Source: Solwaraspora sp. WMMA2065 (GTDB lineage: Bacteria > Actinomycetota > Actinomycetes > Mycobacteriales > Micromonosporaceae). Taken from it: 64,000 bases of DNA. The DNA lies in assembly GCF_030345075.1 (NCBI RefSeq), contig NZ_CP128361.1, positions 1,488,001-1,552,000 on the forward strand, written 5' to 3'. A program made the translations under genes and the position numbers. Each line of letters begins with the position of its first letter. The stretch's first letter is position 1. The notes under the pieces are model-generated. The model was given only the letters and a program-made list of their open reading frames with translations. It was not told where the DNA came from and did no database searches. Positions 1 through 9,310 of this stretch are shown in pieces.

Positions 1-407
1 CGGCGTGCCTCGGCGGCGACCGCCTGGAACGTCTTGACCGTGTTGGTGGGGTAGGTGTGCAGGTCGCCCACGTCGGCGATCCGGGGTGCCCGGTAGCGAA
101 AGGTGTCGCCGCGGCGGGTGTCCAGCATCTGCCACTCGCCGAGGCTGTTCAGGTAGCTGGCGAAGACCAGGCTTGCCTGGCGGATTGCCCGGGGGCCCTC
201 GGCCGCGCCGGGTCGGGAGCTGGCCGTGCCGTCGAACGGTATGCCGGCCACGGCCCAGCCTTCCCCGCCGAGATCGGGGGTGGCGCCACGGGCGTCGGGC
301 GCGCCGAACAGCGTACCCAGTCCCGCCCAGCCGGGCAGCGGGTCCTGTTCGAAGTCGTCAGGTTTGACGCTGTTCTGTAGGGCCTCAAAATCTGGTAGCT
401 CGCTCAT
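1..407 (-). CDS. Agmatinase/arginase-family (ureohydrolase) protein, 3' part outside window
   Basis: The N-terminal ~135 residues of a ureohydrolase-fold enzyme are present; the gene runs off the left edge. Visible family motifs are GIPFDGTASSRPGA followed by GPRAIRQAS and then ADVGDL, the usual N-terminal blocks of agmatinases, which hydrolyse guanidino groups to urea. The metal-binding His/Asp motifs would lie in the missing part. The ATG overlaps the stop of the radical SAM gene by four bases (ATGA), so the two are probably translationally coupled. Downstream of LanB-like and radical SAM genes, a peptide-arginase role (Arg to ornithine, as in landornamide and enteropeptin biosynthesis) is possible, but ordinary agmatinase cannot be excluded. 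Confidence 0.8.
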   Translation of the reverse strand, partial: MSELPDFEALQNSVKPDDFEQDPLPGWAGLGTLFGAPDARGATPDLGGEGWAVAGIPFDGTASSRPGAAEGPRAIRQASLVFASYLNSLGEWQMLDTRRGDTFRYRAPRIADVGDLHTYPTNTVKTFQAVAAEAR

Positions 408-1750
408 CGCGCCTCCGAATCGCTGGTTGCGGCGAGGGCACCTGCCAACCCGCCGCGGACGATGCGGTGGGCGGTGGCGACCTTTTCGTGGAACAGTTCC
501 CAGCTGCGCTGCGGGGTCAGGTACGCCGGGCGGTAGACGACCGGCGCGTCTTCGCGCCAGTTGGCGAAGTCCCAGTCGAAGATCCGGCCGCGCAGCCGGG
601 GGAAGTCCGGTACCAGGGGGTACGGGACGAAGTTGTAAAGGTTGAACAGCCACAGCCGGTCGCGGTTCTCGTCGAGCCAGTCCAGCGTCACCCGGTGCGA
701 CTCCTCGGTCTCCTCGTCGAGGCCGCCCATCAGATTAAGCACCACTTTGAAGCCCGCGTCGCTGAGCTCGCGGATCCGGCCGGTGTAGTGGTCGAGTCCG
801 CGCGACAGCTTGCCCAGCCGCTTGAGCATCCCCGAGTCCGCCGATTCGAAGCCGAGTTCCACCGCCACCACGCCCAGTTCCTGCATCTGGTCGAGGACCT
901 GCTGCTTCACCTGCAGGACATGGGTCTGCACGATGAACCGGTAGCCGGGTCGGTCACAGAACACGTCGATGAGGTTGCGCACTGCCTCACGGGACTGGCC
1001 GAACGTCTTGTCGCCGATGTAGATCAGCCGGGTATCCGGGAATCGGGTGGCGAGATCGTCGACCTCGGCCTCCAGGGCCTTGCGATCCACCAAGGTAAGG
1101 CTCTTACTCCACGCGTCACCGCAGAAAGCGCACTCGTATAGGCAGCCGTGGCTGGCGTTGAGGCGCAGCAGCGGCACCTGGCCCCGATAGCCGCCGAGGT
1201 GCCGGTAGTCGGGCATCCAGGTGATGCGCTCCTCCGACAGGCCCTTGACGAAGGGTTTCTCGCTGGCCCTGCGGCTGTAGTCGAGGGCAACGAGCCGCCG
1301 GACGAACCTGGTGTCGAGCTGTCCTCGGTGCACCAGGTGTACCGAGCCTTCCGGAGCCAGCGGGGCCATGTTTCCGCCGAGGACCACCCGGCGGCCGGCG
1401 GCCTCCAGGTGGCCGGCGACCTCTAGGGCGAGCCGGAAATTCTGCGCCAGCGGGGAGCACAGCACCAGGTCGCCGGGTTTGGTCGCGGCCATCAGTGGCT
1501 CGGTGCAGGCGGCGGCGTCGGCGGGGATCCGCGACAGGTCCTGAAACGTGGAGTCGATGCCGGCGGTGTCCAGTAGAGCCGTCAGGTGGGCGACCCAGAG
1601 TGGCATCTCCCACAAGCCGTCGGCTGGGATGAAGTACTCGGGAAGGAACGACCGGAACGCCTGGTCGTAGGCGAGGTAGTAGTCGGACAGGCGGCTGTCG
1701 GGCGCCGCGGTGGATGGGAAGGGCAGTTGGACCACACAGCCGCGCAGCAA
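404..1750 (-). CDS. Radical SAM protein with probable cobalamin-binding-like N-terminal domain
   Basis: A 448-residue radical SAM enzyme. The cluster motif CLYECAFC (CxxxCxxC) lies near residue 205 and is followed by a typical half-barrel with LIYIGDKTFG and VELGFESAD. The first ~150 residues look like the Rossmann-type B12-binding domain of this superfamily (LCSPLAQNF, VVLGGNMAPL), but I see no DxHxxG base-off motif, so cobalamin binding is uncertain. The start is a TTG four bases after a GGAGG ribosome site at 1755-1759. The gene lies 21 bp downstream of the lantibiotic-dehydratase-like gene and overlaps the agmatinase-like gene, so it is the middle gene of one operon. The substrate is unknown; peptide modification is inferred from context. 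Confidence 0.85.
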   Translation of the reverse strand: MLRGCVVQLPFPSTAAPDSRLSDYYLAYDQAFRSFLPEYFIPADGLWEMPLWVAHLTALLDTAGIDSTFQDLSRIPADAAACTEPLMAATKPGDLVLCSPLAQNFRLALEVAGHLEAAGRRVVLGGNMAPLAPEGSVHLVHRGQLDTRFVRRLVALDYSRRASEKPFVKGLSEERITWMPDYRHLGGYRGQVPLLRLNASHGCLYECAFCGDAWSKSLTLVDRKALEAEVDDLATRFPDTRLIYIGDKTFGQSREAVRNLIDVFCDRPGYRFIVQTHVLQVKQQVLDQMQELGVVAVELGFESADSGMLKRLGKLSRGLDHYTGRIRELSDAGFKVVLNLMGGLDEETEESHRVTLDWLDENRDRLWLFNLYNFVPYPLVPDFPRLRGRIFDWDFANWREDAPVVYRPAYLTPQRSWELFHEKVATAHRIVRGGLAGALAATSDSEAR

Positions 1751-1771
1751 AGTTCCTCCAGTGGGTGCGTG

Positions 1772-4306
1772 TCAGGGGAGCTGCGCGCCGGTACCCCGGG
1801 AGAAGAGAGCACAGCGCAGCTCGCTCGTGTATCGCTTGCCGTCGAGGTCGAGCCAGAGGTCCGTACGGGCGGGGAACATCTCGCTGAAGTCCACGGGGCG
1901 TCCGGTTCGACGCGCCAGCCGGCACACCTGCCGCACCAATAGCGGCGACCTCCAGTCGACGAAGATGGGTTTGGGCTCCCCGGGGATCTTCACGAAGCCG
2001 GTGTCGGGCATGCCCCGGCGGCGTCGCAGATCGCGAGCGGCCAGAAACTCGGCTGCATCGCCTGAGGCCGGGTGCACGCCCGGGCTCCAGCCACGCAGCG
2101 CGGTCGCTGGCAGCCGCCATCGGGCCCGGTGCAGCACGACTCGGCCGCAGCGAATCCGGGGCAGGTGTTCGCGGTCATCGGTGTGCAGGCCGATCCCGCC
2201 GAAGTGCCGGGGGAACGCGAACGGTGACAGGGGGTCCTGGCGGATGCTGGGTCCGCCCGCGAGCGGGGCGAGTAGCCTCAGCCGCCGGTCGACTCCGTGC
2301 GCACGCAGTTCGGGCCGGCCGTCGCGGACGGTCAGAAACAGCTGTCCGGGGTGCAGGACCTCGCCGGGCCCCTTGGGCGATCGACCATAGACCTCCAGGT
2401 CGGGGCATGGATAGGTCAGTTGCGCGCCGGTCTTGTCCGGGTGGGAGCGGGACAGGTCGACCAGGAGTTCGTCGTCGTCGAGCAGCTCCTGGTAGCGCCG
2501 CACCACCTCGTCGAGGATGTCCGGCGCCTCGGCTGCGATCAGCGGCGCGAAACTCGAGTGGGTCAGTGCCTCGCGGACGCCGTGGCAGTCGCCGACGACC
2601 GCGAGGAACTCGCCGCGGCCGATCGCGGCGGCGTTGGGTGCGGCGATCATTACGTCGGGGTTGCATACCGCCGGTTCCGGCACGGCGAGCGCGGCCAGGG
2701 TCTGCTCCAGCCGGCTCCGGTCGGTGACCGCCTCAGCGTCGCCGAGGCGCCAGTCCTCCAGCAGGGTCGCCAGGATGGTGCGCCCGGCTGCCGCGATCTC
2801 CTCGTCGACCTGCTCGCATTGGCGGGCGAGGGCGTCGGCATCGACGTAGAACGCGGCGTAGAAACGGTCGAGCCCGACGTTCGTCCCCGCACCGAACCGG
2901 TTGGTCATCCACTCGCCGAGCAGCCGGCGCTCGCGGTGGACGCGGATTCGGGGTCCGGTCAGGGCCAGGTCGTAGACGATCCGCAGCTCCTCGGCGATCA
3001 GCGCGGCCATGTCGCCGCCGAGGCGCAGATCCTTGACTGGGCCGTACGCCTCCTCGTAGAAGATTGCGCGGTCGGCGTAGTGGGCACCACCGGCACGGTT
3101 GGGCACGGTGCCGGTGACGGCGGCGAAGTCCTCCTTGAGCCGGGCCAGCAGCGGCGCCCGGTGTTCGGCGGGGGCGGCGGCGAACCTGTCGAGTTGCTCG
3201 CGGAAGGACGCCACGGACCGGGCGTCGTCGTCGGTGTCGGGCAGCAGTCCCGCCAGAGCCCGCAGGGGATCCGCGGTGCCGATCGGGATTTCCCAGCGGT
3301 CGATCAGCAGGTCGGCCCGGACCAGGCTGTCGAGCACGTCGTCCAGGTGGGTTTGCCGGTCGCCCCAAGCCGCCCGTAGCTCGCCGATCGTGCGTGTGCC
3401 GTCGCAGTGCTGCCACAGCCACCGCTGGTCCTCGTCGAGCGGTGTGGTGGAGACGGCCTCGAACCGCCAGCCGTCAGGCATCCCGGTGGTGGCGCGGAAG
3501 GCGTACCGGACGAGGCTTCCGTCGTCGAGAAACGCCAACGGCCGTCGGCGGGGCCGCACCAACTCGTGGTTGCCTGGCCGTCCGCTGAACGTCTCGGCGA
3601 GCCGTTCACCGGCCCAGTGCGAGAGATGCGCGACGCGGCGCAGCGGACCGGCACGCCATGAGACACCGGTCGCGGCGGGGATCACCCGAGCCACCGCCAG
3701 CGGCCCGAAGTGTGAGTGGGTCTCGTTCTTGGTCGTGACTCGCTGCACATACATGGTAAGCAAGTCGGTCATCCGTCGGATGTGGCCGGACGAGCCGGTG
3801 GCGCCTCGCTCGAGCCAGGCGATGAACTCGGCGTACCGGGCGTCGTTGGACAGCAGGAGTACCTGCTGGAAGTCCGGTTCCGCGGCAATCCGGATCACCT
3901 CGCGGCGGTTCCGGTCGATCGCGGCCGTAAGCCGTGAGATCCAGGCGGTCCAGGCGGTGTCGAGGTCGGTCGCCGCTTGCTGGTATGCCGTCGCGGCACC
4001 GGCCACCGCGCCGGGATGGTCGCGCAGCAGCCGGTCGAGATCAGTCGCGTGGAAAGGGCGCAGCATGCCGACGCCGGACGCGAGATCGCCGCGCCACCCG
4101 GCCCTCGCTGCACGCAGGGCAACTTTGAGGCGCTGGGCAAGGCGCCACGTGGTGTCGCGCTGATCGAGCACATCATCGGCGTAGCCAGCGCAGTCCGGGT
4201 CGAGAAGGCCGTCGGCCAGGGCAAGAGGAAAGCCCGCCTGCCGTAGCAGCACGACCGGGGCGAGCGACCATCGGCCGATGGTCGCTGCGCGCGCAGCGAT
4301 GCTCAT
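1772..4306 (-). CDS. Lantibiotic dehydratase-like (small LanB / PEARL-like) protein
   Basis: At 844 residues this matches the glutamylation (N-terminal) domain of class I lanthipeptide dehydratases. The hallmark block KNETHSHFGPLAVAR is near residue 195. Full-length LanB enzymes of about 1000 residues carry an extra SpaB_C elimination domain; none is evident here. Proteins of this size act either as split dehydratases that glutamylate Ser/Thr from glutamyl-tRNA, or as peptide aminoacyl-tRNA ligases (PEARLs) that extend a carrier peptide. No separate elimination gene is visible in the window. The ATG follows a GGGGGA ribosome site. It is the first gene of the operon with the radical SAM and agmatinase-like genes. 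The family is confident; the reaction is not. Confidence 0.8.
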   Translation of the reverse strand: MSIAARAATIGRWSLAPVVLLRQAGFPLALADGLLDPDCAGYADDVLDQRDTTWRLAQRLKVALRAARAGWRGDLASGVGMLRPFHATDLDRLLRDHPGAVAGAATAYQQAATDLDTAWTAWISRLTAAIDRNRREVIRIAAEPDFQQVLLLSNDARYAEFIAWLERGATGSSGHIRRMTDLLTMYVQRVTTKNETHSHFGPLAVARVIPAATGVSWRAGPLRRVAHLSHWAGERLAETFSGRPGNHELVRPRRRPLAFLDDGSLVRYAFRATTGMPDGWRFEAVSTTPLDEDQRWLWQHCDGTRTIGELRAAWGDRQTHLDDVLDSLVRADLLIDRWEIPIGTADPLRALAGLLPDTDDDARSVASFREQLDRFAAAPAEHRAPLLARLKEDFAAVTGTVPNRAGGAHYADRAIFYEEAYGPVKDLRLGGDMAALIAEELRIVYDLALTGPRIRVHRERRLLGEWMTNRFGAGTNVGLDRFYAAFYVDADALARQCEQVDEEIAAAGRTILATLLEDWRLGDAEAVTDRSRLEQTLAALAVPEPAVCNPDVMIAAPNAAAIGRGEFLAVVGDCHGVREALTHSSFAPLIAAEAPDILDEVVRRYQELLDDDELLVDLSRSHPDKTGAQLTYPCPDLEVYGRSPKGPGEVLHPGQLFLTVRDGRPELRAHGVDRRLRLLAPLAGGPSIRQDPLSPFAFPRHFGGIGLHTDDREHLPRIRCGRVVLHRARWRLPATALRGWSPGVHPASGDAAEFLAARDLRRRRGMPDTGFVKIPGEPKPIFVDWRSPLLVRQVCRLARRTGRPVDFSEMFPARTDLWLDLDGKRYTSELRCALFSRGTGAQLP

Positions 4307-4315
4307 ATTCCCCCG

Positions 4316-4516
4316 TTACCTGATAGCCATTGCCAGACGGCTGTCAAATCCGCGACACACGTGCGGCGTCGCTCGATCGAGGACAGTGAGGTCCAGTAAA
4401 CCCAAGACGAAGATCGGAGTCAATGGGATTACGAGTGTTGTACGACCGATGCCGGCAAGGTCCAGGACTGGCGCTGCGTCGGCCGCCTCAGCGTCGGATT
4501 GCCCGGCTGGGATCAA
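4316..4516 (-). CDS. Possible small ORF just upstream of the LanB-like gene (uncertain)
   Basis: An open frame ends with TAA only 9 bp before the LanB-like ATG. From a TTG start it would encode 66 residues with an acidic first half (AADAAPVLDLAGIG) and a C-terminus HVCRGFDSRLAMAIR. An internal GTG at 4358-4360 would instead give a 14-residue peptide. Position and Cys/Ser/Arg content would fit a precursor or leader peptide. Against it, no Shine-Dalgarno is visible at either start, and a promoter-like element lies inside the longer version. Listed because it is the only candidate precursor beside the operon in this window; likely to be spurious. Confidence 0.2.
   Translation of the reverse strand: MIPAGQSDAEAADAAPVLDLAGIGRTTLVIPLTPIFVLGLLDLTVLDRATPHVCRGFDSRLAMAIR
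4395..4423 (-). promoter_or_regulatory. Candidate promoter of the LanB-like operon
   Basis: On the minus strand TTGACT (4423-4418) is followed after 17 bases by TTTACT (4400-4395), close to a housekeeping -35/-10 pair. The stretch is AT-richer than its surroundings. Transcription would start near 4388, giving a leader of about 80 nt before the ATG at 4306. Read by eye only. Confidence 0.35.
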
Positions 4517-4752
4517 GCGTCGGGCCGCAGATGTAGTCGAGCCGTTCGTCCATCCACCCCGGGCAGCAGCAGGTCGGCGGTGCGTCGCCGTGGCAGCCAT
4601 CGGACCTGCTCGCCAGCGGCGATGTTGGTGCAGGTCCCGTCGTACTCGTAACGGATGTAGGGGCTGATCGGCTCGGAGATGATTCGAGCCCGTCGCAGCA
4701 CCATGCCGCGTCGGGTGGCCTCAGCCTCGACGTCCAGCCACGGCCGCCACCA
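4513..4752 (-). pseudogene. DUF6879-family remnant
   Basis: The frame reads WWRPWLDVEA, then RARIISEPISPYIRYEYD and NIAAGEQVRWLPRR, then DLLLPG. This is the conserved core of the DUF6879 family, small actinobacterial proteins that often sit beside XRE/DUF5753 regulators. The usual N-terminal ~80 residues are absent, and after DLLLPG the family's aromatic NDFWLF-type continuation is replaced by an unrelated tail and a stop at 4513. It looks like an internal fragment of a decayed gene. The intact XRE/DUF5753 gene lies 350 bp away on the same strand. Confidence 0.6.
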
Positions 4753-6734: not shown

Positions 6735-8751
6735 CCGCTATTGCCTCGTCCCCGCGACCAAGCCCGTCGAGTACGTCCGCCAACGTCCCCAACGCCCCGA
6801 CCAGGTCCCCGACGTACGCCATTGGGATTTGCTGGTACAGCTTCTCGTAGCGCTCGACCGACTCGGTCGCGGCGGTCAACGCCTCAGGCAGTTCGTACTG
6901 GTGGGCTGTCCGTACCCAGGCTTCGGTCCAGAGCGACATGGCGAGGTCGGGTTCGTAGGCGGCGGGTTTGACCTGGGCGAGCCGGCGGCGGATCGTGACG
7001 GCTTCGGCGGTGGCGGTCATGGCCTCATCCTGCCGCCCCAGGTCCGACAGCATCACGCCGAGGTTGTTCAGCGACATGGCGAGGTCGGGTTCGTAGGCGG
7101 CGGGGTTGGCCTGGGCGAGCCGGCGGTAGACGTCGGCGGCTTCGGTGGTGGCGGTCAACGCTTCGTCGCGCCGGCCCGCCTCCGACAGCCGATTCCCGAG
7201 CGATCCGAGTAGACGTGCCGTAGTCGGCTCATCGGCGGTAGCGAGCCGGTGCGTTGTGAGGCGTCTGGTGATAGCTGCTTTGGCGACGGCCAAGCCGACG
7301 TGCAGTTCCTGCGGCAGATGCGGCTCAATCGCCTCGAGCGCGCTGATGTCGAGCGTGTCGACGTCGGCTATCCGGGCCAGGATGGTGCCGCCAGCGGCGA
7401 CCGCCAACTCGGGGCGCTGACGCAACAGCGGGGAGAGCAGCCGGGACGCGACGTGCGGCCAGCGGATCGCGGCCTCGACCAGCACCGTCAACGCCGCTGC
7501 CGACCAGGGCGGCTGGCCGGCGCTATCCGATTCAGTGCCGGTGATCAGCCGGGTGATCGCCCGGCCGGACCACGGATCGGCCGGGGAGCCAGCCACCCCG
7601 TGACCGGGCAGCCGCAGCGCGATGAAGTCCTCGCCGAGCCGGTCGGGATACAACGGCTCCAGCACCTTGTCCGGCTCGGTCGGCGGGTAGCAGACGGCAT
7701 GGTCGGCCAGCATCTGGTCGGCAGCGTCCGGCGCGCACACTCCTGCCGTCGTCAACGCGGCCAGGCCGTCGTCGTAGTCGAGCGGCCGGGTCAACGTCGC
7801 GGTGCAGACCGTACGGCTCAGCAGCTGCGAGATCGTGACGAAGCCGGCGCGCTGTTCGTACAGCTTGTGCCAGTGGTCGACCTCGCGGCGCAGCAGATAG
7901 GCCGACAGGTCCCGATCGCCGGTCGGTGCGGTCCGCTGGCGCGCGGCGGCGTCGACCGCGACCAGCGCCGCCATGTGGATCACCAGGATCTGCCGGTACG
8001 CCTCCCCGGTGGCCAGATCGGCCGGCGGATGGATCGAGCCGCCGTCGATGCCGTACGCGTAGGCGAACCGGTCGGCTGCTTCGGTGAAGATCCGCTGCCG
8101 GTTCGCGGGTCTGTCGGCGGCCGGGGTCAGCGCGGTGACGTCGGCCGCGTACCCGAGCGTGGCCAGGTCATGCTGGTACGGCCACAACGTCGACTCGGGT
8201 CGGGCGAGCAGCAGAAGCCGGGTCGGCACACCCTGGCGCAGCAGCCGGTCCTTGAACATGTCCCGCAGGTCTTCGGCGGGCCAGCGTTCGGCATAGTCGA
8301 TGATCACCAGCAAGCCACGCCCGGTTGCCTCGGTGGCCTCGGGCGGGTCGTCGGCGGCGAGTTGGCTGCGGTGCCGGGCGACCGCGACCGCCCAGCCGGC
8401 GGCGATGCTGTCCGCGCCGAACTGGGCCGCGAGCCGGGTCTTGCCCTGCCCGCCCGGCCCGTGCAGCAGCCGCACAGCGACCCCGCGCGCCGGGTCGTCG
8501 CGCCAGGCGGCCAACTCGGCGCGGTCGGCGTCGCGCAGGGCGGTGAACGGCACCACCTGATTGTTGGCGGCGAGCAACATGCTCGGCTGGTCGACCAACG
8601 TACGCGGGTCCGGTGGCCGCTGCGGCTGCCACCGCTCCACCCGGTACGCCGGCCGCTGCTCGTAGATGGTGATGTGCTGGTCACCGGCGGCCTGGAACAC
8701 CTGCCCGTGGCCGCTGGCCTCGCCGTGCAGGTGGATGTCCGGGTTGGTCAC
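6697..8751 (-). CDS. STAND/NLR-like P-loop ATPase with N-terminal amyloid-like motif and TPR repeats
   Basis: 684 residues. An N-terminal motif QVFQAAGDQHI lies at residues ~17-27, followed by an NTPase core with Walker A GPGGQGKT (~98-105) and Walker B LLVIIDYAE. A helical middle region follows, then C-terminal tetratricopeptide-like repeats with two near-identical copies of PAAYEPDLAMSL. This is the plan of bacterial NLR-like signalling ATPases: sensing by repeats, NTP-driven oligomerisation and effector recruitment by a homotypic motif. The matching motif (RVYQAARDQHI) forms the C-terminus of the upstream gene product, and the two genes overlap by GTGA. A conflict or cell-suicide role is an inference. 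Confidence 0.8.
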   Translation of the reverse strand: MTNPDIHLHGEASGHGQVFQAAGDQHITIYEQRPAYRVERWQPQRPPDPRTLVDQPSMLLAANNQVVPFTALRDADRAELAAWRDDPARGVAVRLLHGPGGQGKTRLAAQFGADSIAAGWAVAVARHRSQLAADDPPEATEATGRGLLVIIDYAERWPAEDLRDMFKDRLLRQGVPTRLLLLARPESTLWPYQHDLATLGYAADVTALTPAADRPANRQRIFTEAADRFAYAYGIDGGSIHPPADLATGEAYRQILVIHMAALVAVDAAARQRTAPTGDRDLSAYLLRREVDHWHKLYEQRAGFVTISQLLSRTVCTATLTRPLDYDDGLAALTTAGVCAPDAADQMLADHAVCYPPTEPDKVLEPLYPDRLGEDFIALRLPGHGVAGSPADPWSGRAITRLITGTESDSAGQPPWSAAALTVLVEAAIRWPHVASRLLSPLLRQRPELAVAAGGTILARIADVDTLDISALEAIEPHLPQELHVGLAVAKAAITRRLTTHRLATADEPTTARLLGSLGNRLSEAGRRDEALTATTEAADVYRRLAQANPAAYEPDLAMSLNNLGVMLSDLGRQDEAMTATAEAVTIRRRLAQVKPAAYEPDLAMSLWTEAWVRTAHQYELPEALTAATESVERYEKLYQQIPMAYVGDLVGALGTLADVLDGLGRGDEAIAVRARRDALTAEQ
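6933..7126. repeat. Tandem coding repeat in the STAND gene (138-bp period)
   Basis: The stretch beginning GCGACATGGCGAGGTCGG at 6933 recurs almost unchanged at 7071. The 138-bp spacing is 46 codons and corresponds to two successive TPR-like units of the STAND protein. The near identity points to recent duplication and possible copy-number variation of the sensor repeats. Confidence 0.65.
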
Positions 8752-9173
8752 TTCTCGTTGATGTGCTGGTCGCGGGCGGCCTGGTAGACGCGGGCGTTGT
8801 CTTTGGCGTTGGCGGTCATCGTGATGCTGCCGACCTGCTGCTGGTCGGCGGGCGGCAGCAGGGGAGTGAGGGTGTCGTCGAGCAGGCGACGCAGCTCGGC
8901 GGCGAACGCCGGATCCTGGCGGATCAGCCGCTGCAGTTTGCGTTGCCAGTCGTCTACCAGGCCCCGCTCGGCGTCAGTGTCACCGTCGCGGCGAGCGGCC
9001 ATGACCTCCTCGCGTACCTCGGCCAGCTCGGCGGCGACGGCGTCGGCCTGCTGCGGGCGTACCCGCCGCCACAGCGCGACCGCCCCGTCACGAGCCTTCT
9101 CCCACGCGTCCGTCGCGATCGCCTGGATCAACGCGGCACCGGTCGCCGCCGCGACCGGGTCGATGTCCACCAT
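8748..9173 (-). CDS. Small helical protein with C-terminal RHIM/amyloid-like motif (Bell-like effector candidate)
   Basis: A 141-residue protein. Residues 1-105 are predicted all-helical, with heptad-like patterns in AAELAEVREEVMAARR and QRKLQRLIRQ. A Gln/Asn-rich linker leads to a C-terminal RVYQAARDQHI at residues 128-138. This matches the N-terminal motif of the co-transcribed STAND ATPase at 8 of 11 positions. Bacterial amyloid signalling systems place such motifs at the C-terminus of a small (Bell-domain) effector and at the N-terminus of an adjacent NLR. I chose the ATG at 9173 because a GGAG site sits 8 bp upstream; the open frame extends further but without a ribosome site. Confidence 0.7.
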   Translation of the reverse strand: MVDIDPVAAATGAALIQAIATDAWEKARDGAVALWRRVRPQQADAVAAELAEVREEVMAARRDGDTDAERGLVDDWQRKLQRLIRQDPAFAAELRRLLDDTLTPLLPPADQQQVGSITMTANAKDNARVYQAARDQHINEK

Positions 9174-9310
9174 GCCAGCCACTCCGTCCGTCCGAGGTGG
9201 CAACCACAGTAGACCCATACCGCCAGCCAGTCGGACCGCCTCGCTGTCGGATCCGCTACAGCAGGGGTGATCGTGGCGCGCTGAACCACCTGTACGAGTG
9301 ACGGCTGCCG

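Follow-up and report, generated by a model that had tools for sequence, protein, structure and literature searches.

A stretch of 64,000 nucleotides of Solwaraspora sp. WMMA2065, hereafter the window, corresponds to contig positions 1488001-1552000 of a genome that consists of one contig of 6.74 Mb. Its left end (window 1-4306) encodes on the minus strand a protein resembling lantibiotic dehydratases (LanB1), a radical S-adenosylmethionine (SAM) protein and a ureohydrolase of the agmatinase/arginase fold, and the pathway to which these genes may belong is the subject of this text. A first-pass annotation had described the three genes as coupled by a 21-bp gap and an ATGA overlap, and open reading frames (ORFs) together with Pfam matches confirm both the genes and this spacing. 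LanB1 (window 1772..4306, 844 amino acids (aa), PF04738) is the first gene of the inferred operon and is followed by the radical SAM gene (window 404..1750, 448 aa, TTG start, PF04055) and by the ureohydrolase gene (contig 1487322-1488407, 361 aa), of which the window holds positions 1..407 with the ATG at 407; the Arginase-family ORF at window 3-653 (minus strand) contains its first part only. The gene is truncated by the window edge only, because it is complete in the left flank of this single-contig genome. That flank (L003, contig 1470001-1489000; window position = L003 position - 18000) completes a tight minus-strand run of eight genes, the further members being a protein of about 350 aa (contig 1486276-1487325, 349 aa, no Pfam family at E ≤ 1), a PHP phosphoesterase (contig 1485344 to about 1486300), a second LanB-like protein, LanB2 (contig 1482795-1485347, 850 aa, 48% identical to LanB1), an exporter of the major facilitator superfamily (MFS; contig 1481587-1482780) and a kinase of the aminoglycoside phosphotransferase (APH) type (contig 1480646-1481578). 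A corrinoid adenosyltransferase gene (contig 1480086-1480655, L003:10083-10655, minus strand) comes after APH at the operon end. Judging by gene spacing alone, the eight-gene run would be an operon with one presumed transcript: the match to a gene starts at the earliest 145 bases ahead of the preceding gene's stop and at the latest 21 bases behind it, part of the measured overlap being N-terminal overhang of the query. Because the junctions overlap or nearly touch, the operon has no room for an extra gene.

A search with LanB1 gave 13 related loci in named genomes. In eight of them (L043-L048, L053 and L055, from Micromonospora okii, Actinacidiphila acididurans and six Streptomyces), as in Solwaraspora, the genes for LanB1, radical SAM and ureohydrolase are direct neighbours in an unchanged order, which excludes chance adjacency and supports the single coupled pathway with co-occurring genes that had been proposed. 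Furthermore, LanB1, radical SAM, ureohydrolase, PHP, LanB2, MFS and APH keep one order in all nine clusters, and the ~350-aa gene is present in seven of the eight relatives, the genome of L045 (G305) giving no match at E ≤ 0.001. The corrinoid adenosyltransferase gene follows APH in five of the nine, once cut by the end of the stretch; for the four others the sequence examined ends about 0.4 to 1.6 kb past APH. The remaining five of the 13 loci are sister clusters (L049 and L050 from one strain, L051, L052 and L054).

LanB1 and LanB2 match PF04738 only (Pfam, E ≤ 1; for LanB1 Lant_dehydr_N, E 3.8e-29), which agrees with the earlier statement that the LanB-like protein has no SpaB_C domain, and neither the elimination domain PF14028 nor a partner carrying it was found among the operon proteins at that threshold. 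TbtB is the sole strong solved relative of the LanB proteins here. As far as the available text of the BhaB7/TglB study goes, R34, Y205, R208, E813 and R815 of BhaB7, a peptide aminoacyl-tRNA ligase (PEARL), contact ATP, the carboxylate and the tRNA 3'-CCA, and the E-x-R motif is assigned to the ATP site (PMC11962472). R22, Y186, R189, E829 and R831 are invariant in 22 of 22 aligned LanB1/LanB2 proteins and were equated with these sites by motif and spacing, without an aligned characterised PEARL sequence; the position of Gln201 is Leu or Met in LanB1/LanB2. LanB1 is a candidate PEARL-type, aminoacyl-tRNA-dependent ligase, a type which is preferred over a dehydratase because the operon lacks an elimination partner. 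The former label of a PEARL/split-LanB-type ligase holds in so far as PEARL-type is the better guess than dehydratase, but the PEARL-site residues do not discriminate. A class I lanthipeptide or split-LanB assignment finds no support, since neither an elimination domain or partner among the operon proteins nor a precursor peptide in the cluster flanks was found.

The radical SAM protein (PF04055, E 3e-12) has its CxxxCxxC motif as GCLYECAFC, with the three cysteines invariant in nine of nine sequences. Its closest NCBIfam models are of the PhpK/ApyD/HpnJ/AprD4 type, all far under cut-off; it is like AprD4-type enzymes in that the best solved structure for its profile is 6fd2 (AprD4, E 1.5e-8) and unlike them in its score against the AprD4 model (31.9 bits, cut-off 500). 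The B12-binding family PF02310 gives no match at E ≤ 1 in this protein and is found in the radical SAM enzyme of one sister cluster (L052:16494-17777). The ureohydrolase ORF belongs to the Arginase family (PF00491, E 9.2e-60), in accordance with the fold first assigned to it, and its metal motifs, GDHS at 149, DHHFD at 179 and DIDVLD at 272, are kept in nine of nine sequences. Agmatinase 2, guanidinobutyrase, guanidinopropionase and other agmatinases are its nearest kin, and proclavaminate amidinohydrolase also scores high; the peptide arginase OspR (8BRP) is absent from the best 60 of 75 PDB sequences, which are headed by agmatinase 2 and guanidinobutyrase. The idea of a peptide arginase finds no support, the enzyme being agmatinase-like and no conserved Arg-containing precursor candidate being found in the cluster flanks.

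The catalytic motifs of the ureohydrolase are retained, and likewise those of PHP and the HxDxxxxN and DW motifs of APH, as we take the PHP and APH motifs to be defined. The closest models of PHP are the 3',5'-nucleoside bisphosphate phosphatase and RNase RNM, under the NCBIfam cut-offs (117.8 bits vs 400), and its closest PDB entries are 2yb1, 3e0f, 9etk and 7ug9. Among solved structures APH matches only 41 residues of hygromycin-B kinase. In the ~350-aa protein H106-x-D108, H301 and H307 are invariant in nine of nine sequences, a pattern resembling the HxD...H facial triad of the cupin-fold Fe/2-oxoglutarate oxygenases; the Pfam and PDB profile searches gave no usable match. AlphaFold2 models of this protein had pLDDT of 52.0 and 50.7 (8 and 9 sequences) and were unusable, and a Foldseek search with the first gave nothing at E ≤ 0.001. 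A match to DUF6928 was disregarded (two of eight members, best E 0.016). The same protein has a conserved CxCGxC at alignment positions 254-259 (first sequence), a possible extra metal site.

Parts of the cluster are exchanged in other genomes. Streptomyces G341 has the radical SAM protein (71% identity), the ureohydrolase (77%), the ~350-aa protein (63%) and APH (38%) together, and within 30 kb neither LanB nor PHP is matched at E ≤ 1e-4; the core genes can therefore occur without LanBs. Downstream of its APH lie an Acetyltransf_6/FemAB_like protein (E 3e-9, above the Acetyltransf_6 cut-off), an MFS protein, a second FemAB_like protein (E 1.2e-5) and a HAD hydrolase. The FemAB/GNAT fold includes aminoacyl-tRNA-dependent ligases. 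The opposite case is seen in L049 and L051, where two LanBs, MFS and APH are present but the stretch examined gives no match to the Solwaraspora radical SAM protein or ureohydrolase; a HAD hydrolase is also encoded in L051, and an M20 peptidase lies near the L049 genes. In L052 (M. zingiberis) and L054 (Planosporangium thailandense) PHP, two LanBs and APH are retained, and the accompanying genes encode an adenosylhomocysteinase (L052, TIGR00936, 544.9 bits, cut-off 497.6; L054, PF05221), ABC transporters and a radical SAM protein, which has a B12-binding domain in L052 and is assigned by family in L054. PHP stands immediately before LanB2, or before a LanB in L052 and L054. In a tree whose outgroup was drawn from L008-L033 (15 of 26 used, a plus-frame match at E ≤ 1e-8 being needed) and which is without the closest single-LanB relative (G207, L008), of the LanB copies of L049/L051 one groups with LanB1 (support 0.98) and the other with LanB2 (support 0.74), and those of L052 and L054 pair one to one (1.0 each). 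The LanB pairing thus seems old, as if the two genes had been passed on together as a module around changing cores; the two swaps, in G341 and in the sister clusters, together suggest modules. In S. hiroshimensis, moreover, PHP and LanB2 share one 1288-codon frame (L046:16040-19906), with an internal ATG and ribosome-binding site between them.

Gene content, gene order, conservation, the swaps and the catalytic motifs are direct observations, and the reading built upon them, to which we give about an even chance, is that of a small-metabolite pathway, in which a guanidine-derived amino acid would be made first, extended by two PEARL-type ligations, protected by the kinase and phosphatase and exported. 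The core without LanB in G341, the absence of a conserved scaffold gene from the flanks and the agmatinase-like enzyme point to this order, in which the chemistry on the small molecule precedes the tRNA-dependent ligation. The radical SAM protein, the ureohydrolase and usually the ~350-aa protein would build a guanidine-derived, arginine-type amino acid, from which the ureohydrolase might take off urea and leave an amine, by analogy with a late amidinohydrolase deprotection. In two ligations, LanB1 and LanB2 would use ATP to activate the carboxylate and couple to it one tRNA-borne amino acid apiece; the product, of the form core-aa1-aa2, would need no ribosomal scaffold peptide and, by analogy, its two added residues would make it a masked, bialaphos-like peptide. 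The APH-type kinase would phosphorylate an intermediate and PHP (HAD in variants) would dephosphorylate it, which is simplest understood as self-protection around MFS export, and export with dephosphorylation would complete the product. The reactions, the substrate, the order of the steps and the bioactivity of the product are all predictions.

Several points weigh against this reading. An outgroup of 15 Micromonosporaceae LanB relatives also has R22, R189, E829 and R831 (15 of 15) and Y186 (14 of 15), so the conservation indicates competence, not class, and does not separate PEARLs from other LanB-like proteins. The LanB-free core arrangement is seen in one genome, G341, whose FemAB_like scores (25.0 and 23.9 bits) are under the Pfam cut-off of 27 and whose FemAB/GNAT-type genes lie after APH, outside the LanB positions. 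Moreover, FemAB/GNAT-type ligases acylate an amine, the direction opposite to that of PEARLs; given this direction and the position after APH, the swap need not yield an analogous product. The ~350-aa protein gave no usable Pfam or PDB profile match for its fold, and protection by kinase and phosphatase is an analogy. Finally, the scaffold search covered flanks: of 664 flanking ORFs (≤150 aa, nine clusters) none matches two or more other clusters, the rest of the genome not having been searched, and the longest real junctions in the relatives reach 122 nt (L045, between LanB1 and radical SAM) and 116 nt (L046, before APH).

The strongest of the alternatives is the ribosomally synthesized and post-translationally modified peptide (RiPP) pathway of the first-pass annotation. 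In this pearlin route a scaffold peptide would receive Arg, or some other residue, at its C-terminus from LanB1, the radical SAM protein and ureohydrolase would modify the peptide-bound residue, and a protease would free the product, the scaffold lying outside the cluster or being too short or too diverged. According to the available parts of the literature, a carrier peptide is used in every PEARL pathway except that of SnaE, and several PEARLs per cluster are known (ammosamide, bha). The evidence at the locus points the other way. An all-against-all search at E ≤ 1e-5, followed by grouping, took in the ORFs of at least 25 aa from 15 sequences: the Solwaraspora locus, 12 of the 13 loci from named genomes and, for two of these, a longer joined stretch as well. 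It would overlook any peptide shorter than 25 aa or so divergent as to miss that threshold; in addition, upstream frames were listed in nine clusters (900 nt of the plus strand; 300 nt) and the upstream DNA was aligned. Flanking ORFs that match one other cluster occur only in the close pair L044/L053, and no ORF within 1 kb upstream of the Solwaraspora LanB1 matches any other locus. Accordingly, the 94-aa ORF just upstream of LanB1 (window 4316..4600, minus strand) was rejected as a scaffold peptide, no similar ORF being present in the compared loci. In M. okii the frames wholly inside the last 300 nt before LanB1 have at most six codons, longer ones beginning further upstream. The junctions of the relatives are mostly as tight as those of Solwaraspora; the large values in L045 and L047 (MFS-APH) and L046 (PHP-LanB2) are spurious, being caused by an in-frame stop within the MFS match or by two genes sharing a frame. 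Thus no conserved precursor gene was found in the flanks of the nine clusters, there is no gene-sized gap in the Solwaraspora operon, and the core genes of G341 stand without LanBs in 30 kb, all of which makes the route unlikely. Of the precursor, protease and transporter genes expected in the left flank, the MFS exporter is present, but neither a conserved precursor nor, among the operon proteins, a Pfam-recognised protease was found.

The region ahead of LanB1 has a promoter-like TTGACT-17-TTTACT (window 4395..4423, minus strand), assigned by eye. In the seven streptomycete-type relatives a TTGAA promoter-like block lies ~70-78 nt upstream of LanB1, in all seven in the DNA alignment and in four of seven by a fixed-spacing pattern. 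Frames of 18-19 codons in some streptomycetes overlap this block.

A nucleoside-type product is plausible, though we think it quite unlikely. Its core would be an adenosyl or nucleoside amino acid, for example 5'-deoxyadenosyl joined by the radical SAM protein to an arginine-derived chain, from which the ureohydrolase would free an amine before extension by the LanB pair. Indirectly, this would suit the adenosylhomocysteinase of L052 and L054, a second copy of which is found elsewhere in either genome, the nearness of PHP to 2yb1, 7ug9 and the models for nucleoside bisphosphate phosphatase and RNase RNM, and the corrinoid adenosyltransferase after APH in five clusters, which in Solwaraspora is accompanied by another copy in the genome (contig 3338020-3338583, 65% identical). 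However, the PHP score is well under the NCBIfam cut-off, the Solwaraspora cluster has no adenosylhomocysteinase match and the single one of its genome is far away, and APH-type kinases are not nucleoside-specific. A link to sinefungin, considered in the light of the S. incarnatus genome paper and of the sinefungin passages in PMC10491745, was dropped as a claim. G341 has no SelA match and in this respect does not fit the sinefungin producer whose genome has been sequenced; among the openly licensed papers listed, none deals with a sinefungin gene cluster, as judged by title or abstract opening. A more specific version, a long shot, would have the pathway make peptide-masked SAM analogues: the radical SAM protein would join 5'-deoxyadenosine to an arginine-derived chain, the ureohydrolase would yield a sinefungin-like adenosyl-ornithine, and the paired PEARLs would add two amino acids to the free molecule without scaffold or nonribosomal peptide synthetase (NRPS), the sister clusters making a related analogue of SAM or S-adenosylhomocysteine with a spare adenosylhomocysteinase as protection.

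That LanB1 and LanB2 are glutamyl-tRNA-dependent O-acyltransferases using split-LanB chemistry on small-molecule hydroxyls, perhaps set by the ~350-aa protein, would agree with PF04738 being shared with glutamylation domains, with TbtB as the sole strong solved relative and with the non-discriminating catalytic Arg/Glu positions. It is nevertheless highly improbable, because L045 keeps both LanBs without the ~350-aa gene, an elimination partner was not found among the operon proteins and the E-x-R motif, placed in the ATP site in the available text of PMC11962472, is kept. Ordinary arginine or polyamine catabolism beside an unrelated LanB, for which only the resemblance of the ureohydrolase to agmatinase/guanidinobutyrase speaks, has practically no chance and is already refuted by gene context, since the same gene run occurs in M. 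okii and seven streptomycete-type genomes and the left flank holds biosynthetic, export and kinase genes, none catabolic. Neither observation named in the first-pass annotation as refuting its proposal, a left flank of polyamine or arginine catabolism or three genes that do not co-occur in relatives, was made.

Under the preferred small-metabolite reading the cluster would be a new mix of known parts. It resembles the PEARLs TglB, AmmB2 and BhaB7 in PF04738, a length of about 850 aa, the missing elimination domain, the N-terminal Arg, Y-x2-R and E-x-R, and differs from them in having a LanB pair beside PHP and APH genes and no scaffold peptide found in the flanks. SnaE of the threopeptin pathway is, in the accessible account, a PEARL that adds an amino acid to a small carboxylate without carrier peptide (PMC11212132); it is likewise a LanB-like ligase independent of a carrier, but it acts on a product of NRPS and polyketide synthase (PKS), whereas the operon here has two ligases and no NRPS/PKS gene. 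The peptide arginases OspR, FlmR and OhkR (PMC10028609 and PMC12703449, as far as available) share with the ureohydrolase the superfamily, the binuclear metal motifs and a tailoring context, yet no conserved precursor adjoins it here. DstH performs a late amidinohydrolase deprotection in marginolactones, according to the available part of PMC4737276, and DstH/PriH and proclavaminate amidinohydrolase free an amine from a guanidine-bearing intermediate, as is predicted here, where, however, polyketide and beta-lactam genes are lacking. The combination of LanB, ureohydrolase and radical SAM genes, put forward as new, was found by title or abstract opening in none of the papers listed; these come from the openly licensed literature, and the negative is weak evidence of absence. 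If the reading is true, PEARLs are not bound to carrier peptides or assembly-line products, and a cassette of two PEARLs, kinase and phosphatase moves between biosynthetic cores, one of which occurs with FemAB/GNAT-type proteins in place of LanBs. Small tRNA-made peptides that now carry a lanthipeptide annotation could then be found by sequence, the cluster would serve for studying how PEARLs choose their substrates, and a tailoring route from guanidine to amine, without known product, would be at hand.

The distribution of the cluster is patchy. Among 300 genomes of the same family, the source genome apart, the best matches have 45-48% identity and belong to sister-type clusters (G107, G073), followed by one of 34% (G207). 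Of the six other same-genus genomes listed there five have no match and one a weak match, and a further 165 genomes, not listed, are without a match. In 392 Streptomyces genomes the radical SAM profile matches three at E ≤ 1e-30, including G300 (L047) and G305 (L045), and the ~350-aa protein matches three, of which the one in G495 is a remnant of 37 positions. When 394 genomes of the class were searched with the ~350-aa protein, two matched, namely the Solwaraspora genome itself and a remnant with the coordinates of that in G495, hence probably the same genome. Plasmid-borne relatives were not found at E ≤ 1e-20. The remnant belongs to a decayed cluster (L063, G495:C1:24001-44000, positions 8185-9222, also in L058/L060), in which pieces of the ~350-aa gene, LanB and MFS lie in the original order within about 1 kb.

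Other LanB relatives stand in different surroundings. Next to the lone LanB of G207 (L039, 11994-14534, minus strand, 34%) lie MFS genes and genes for a DegT-type aminotransferase and a sugar epimerase, surroundings that resemble an aminosugar locus. L041/L042 (G237:C56) has several LanB-like genes (about 26-29% identity), two TldD/PmbA-type proteins, MFS and a methyltransferase, which from its gene content is a different LanB-type pathway. Close to the Solwaraspora operon end, L003:8986-9996 (minus strand, contig 1478986-1479996) has a transposase-type N-terminus (HTH_Tnp_1, E 6e-6) fused to a partial APH-like C-terminus (E 9e-4, under the cut-off) and looks like a kinase gene disrupted by an insertion element.

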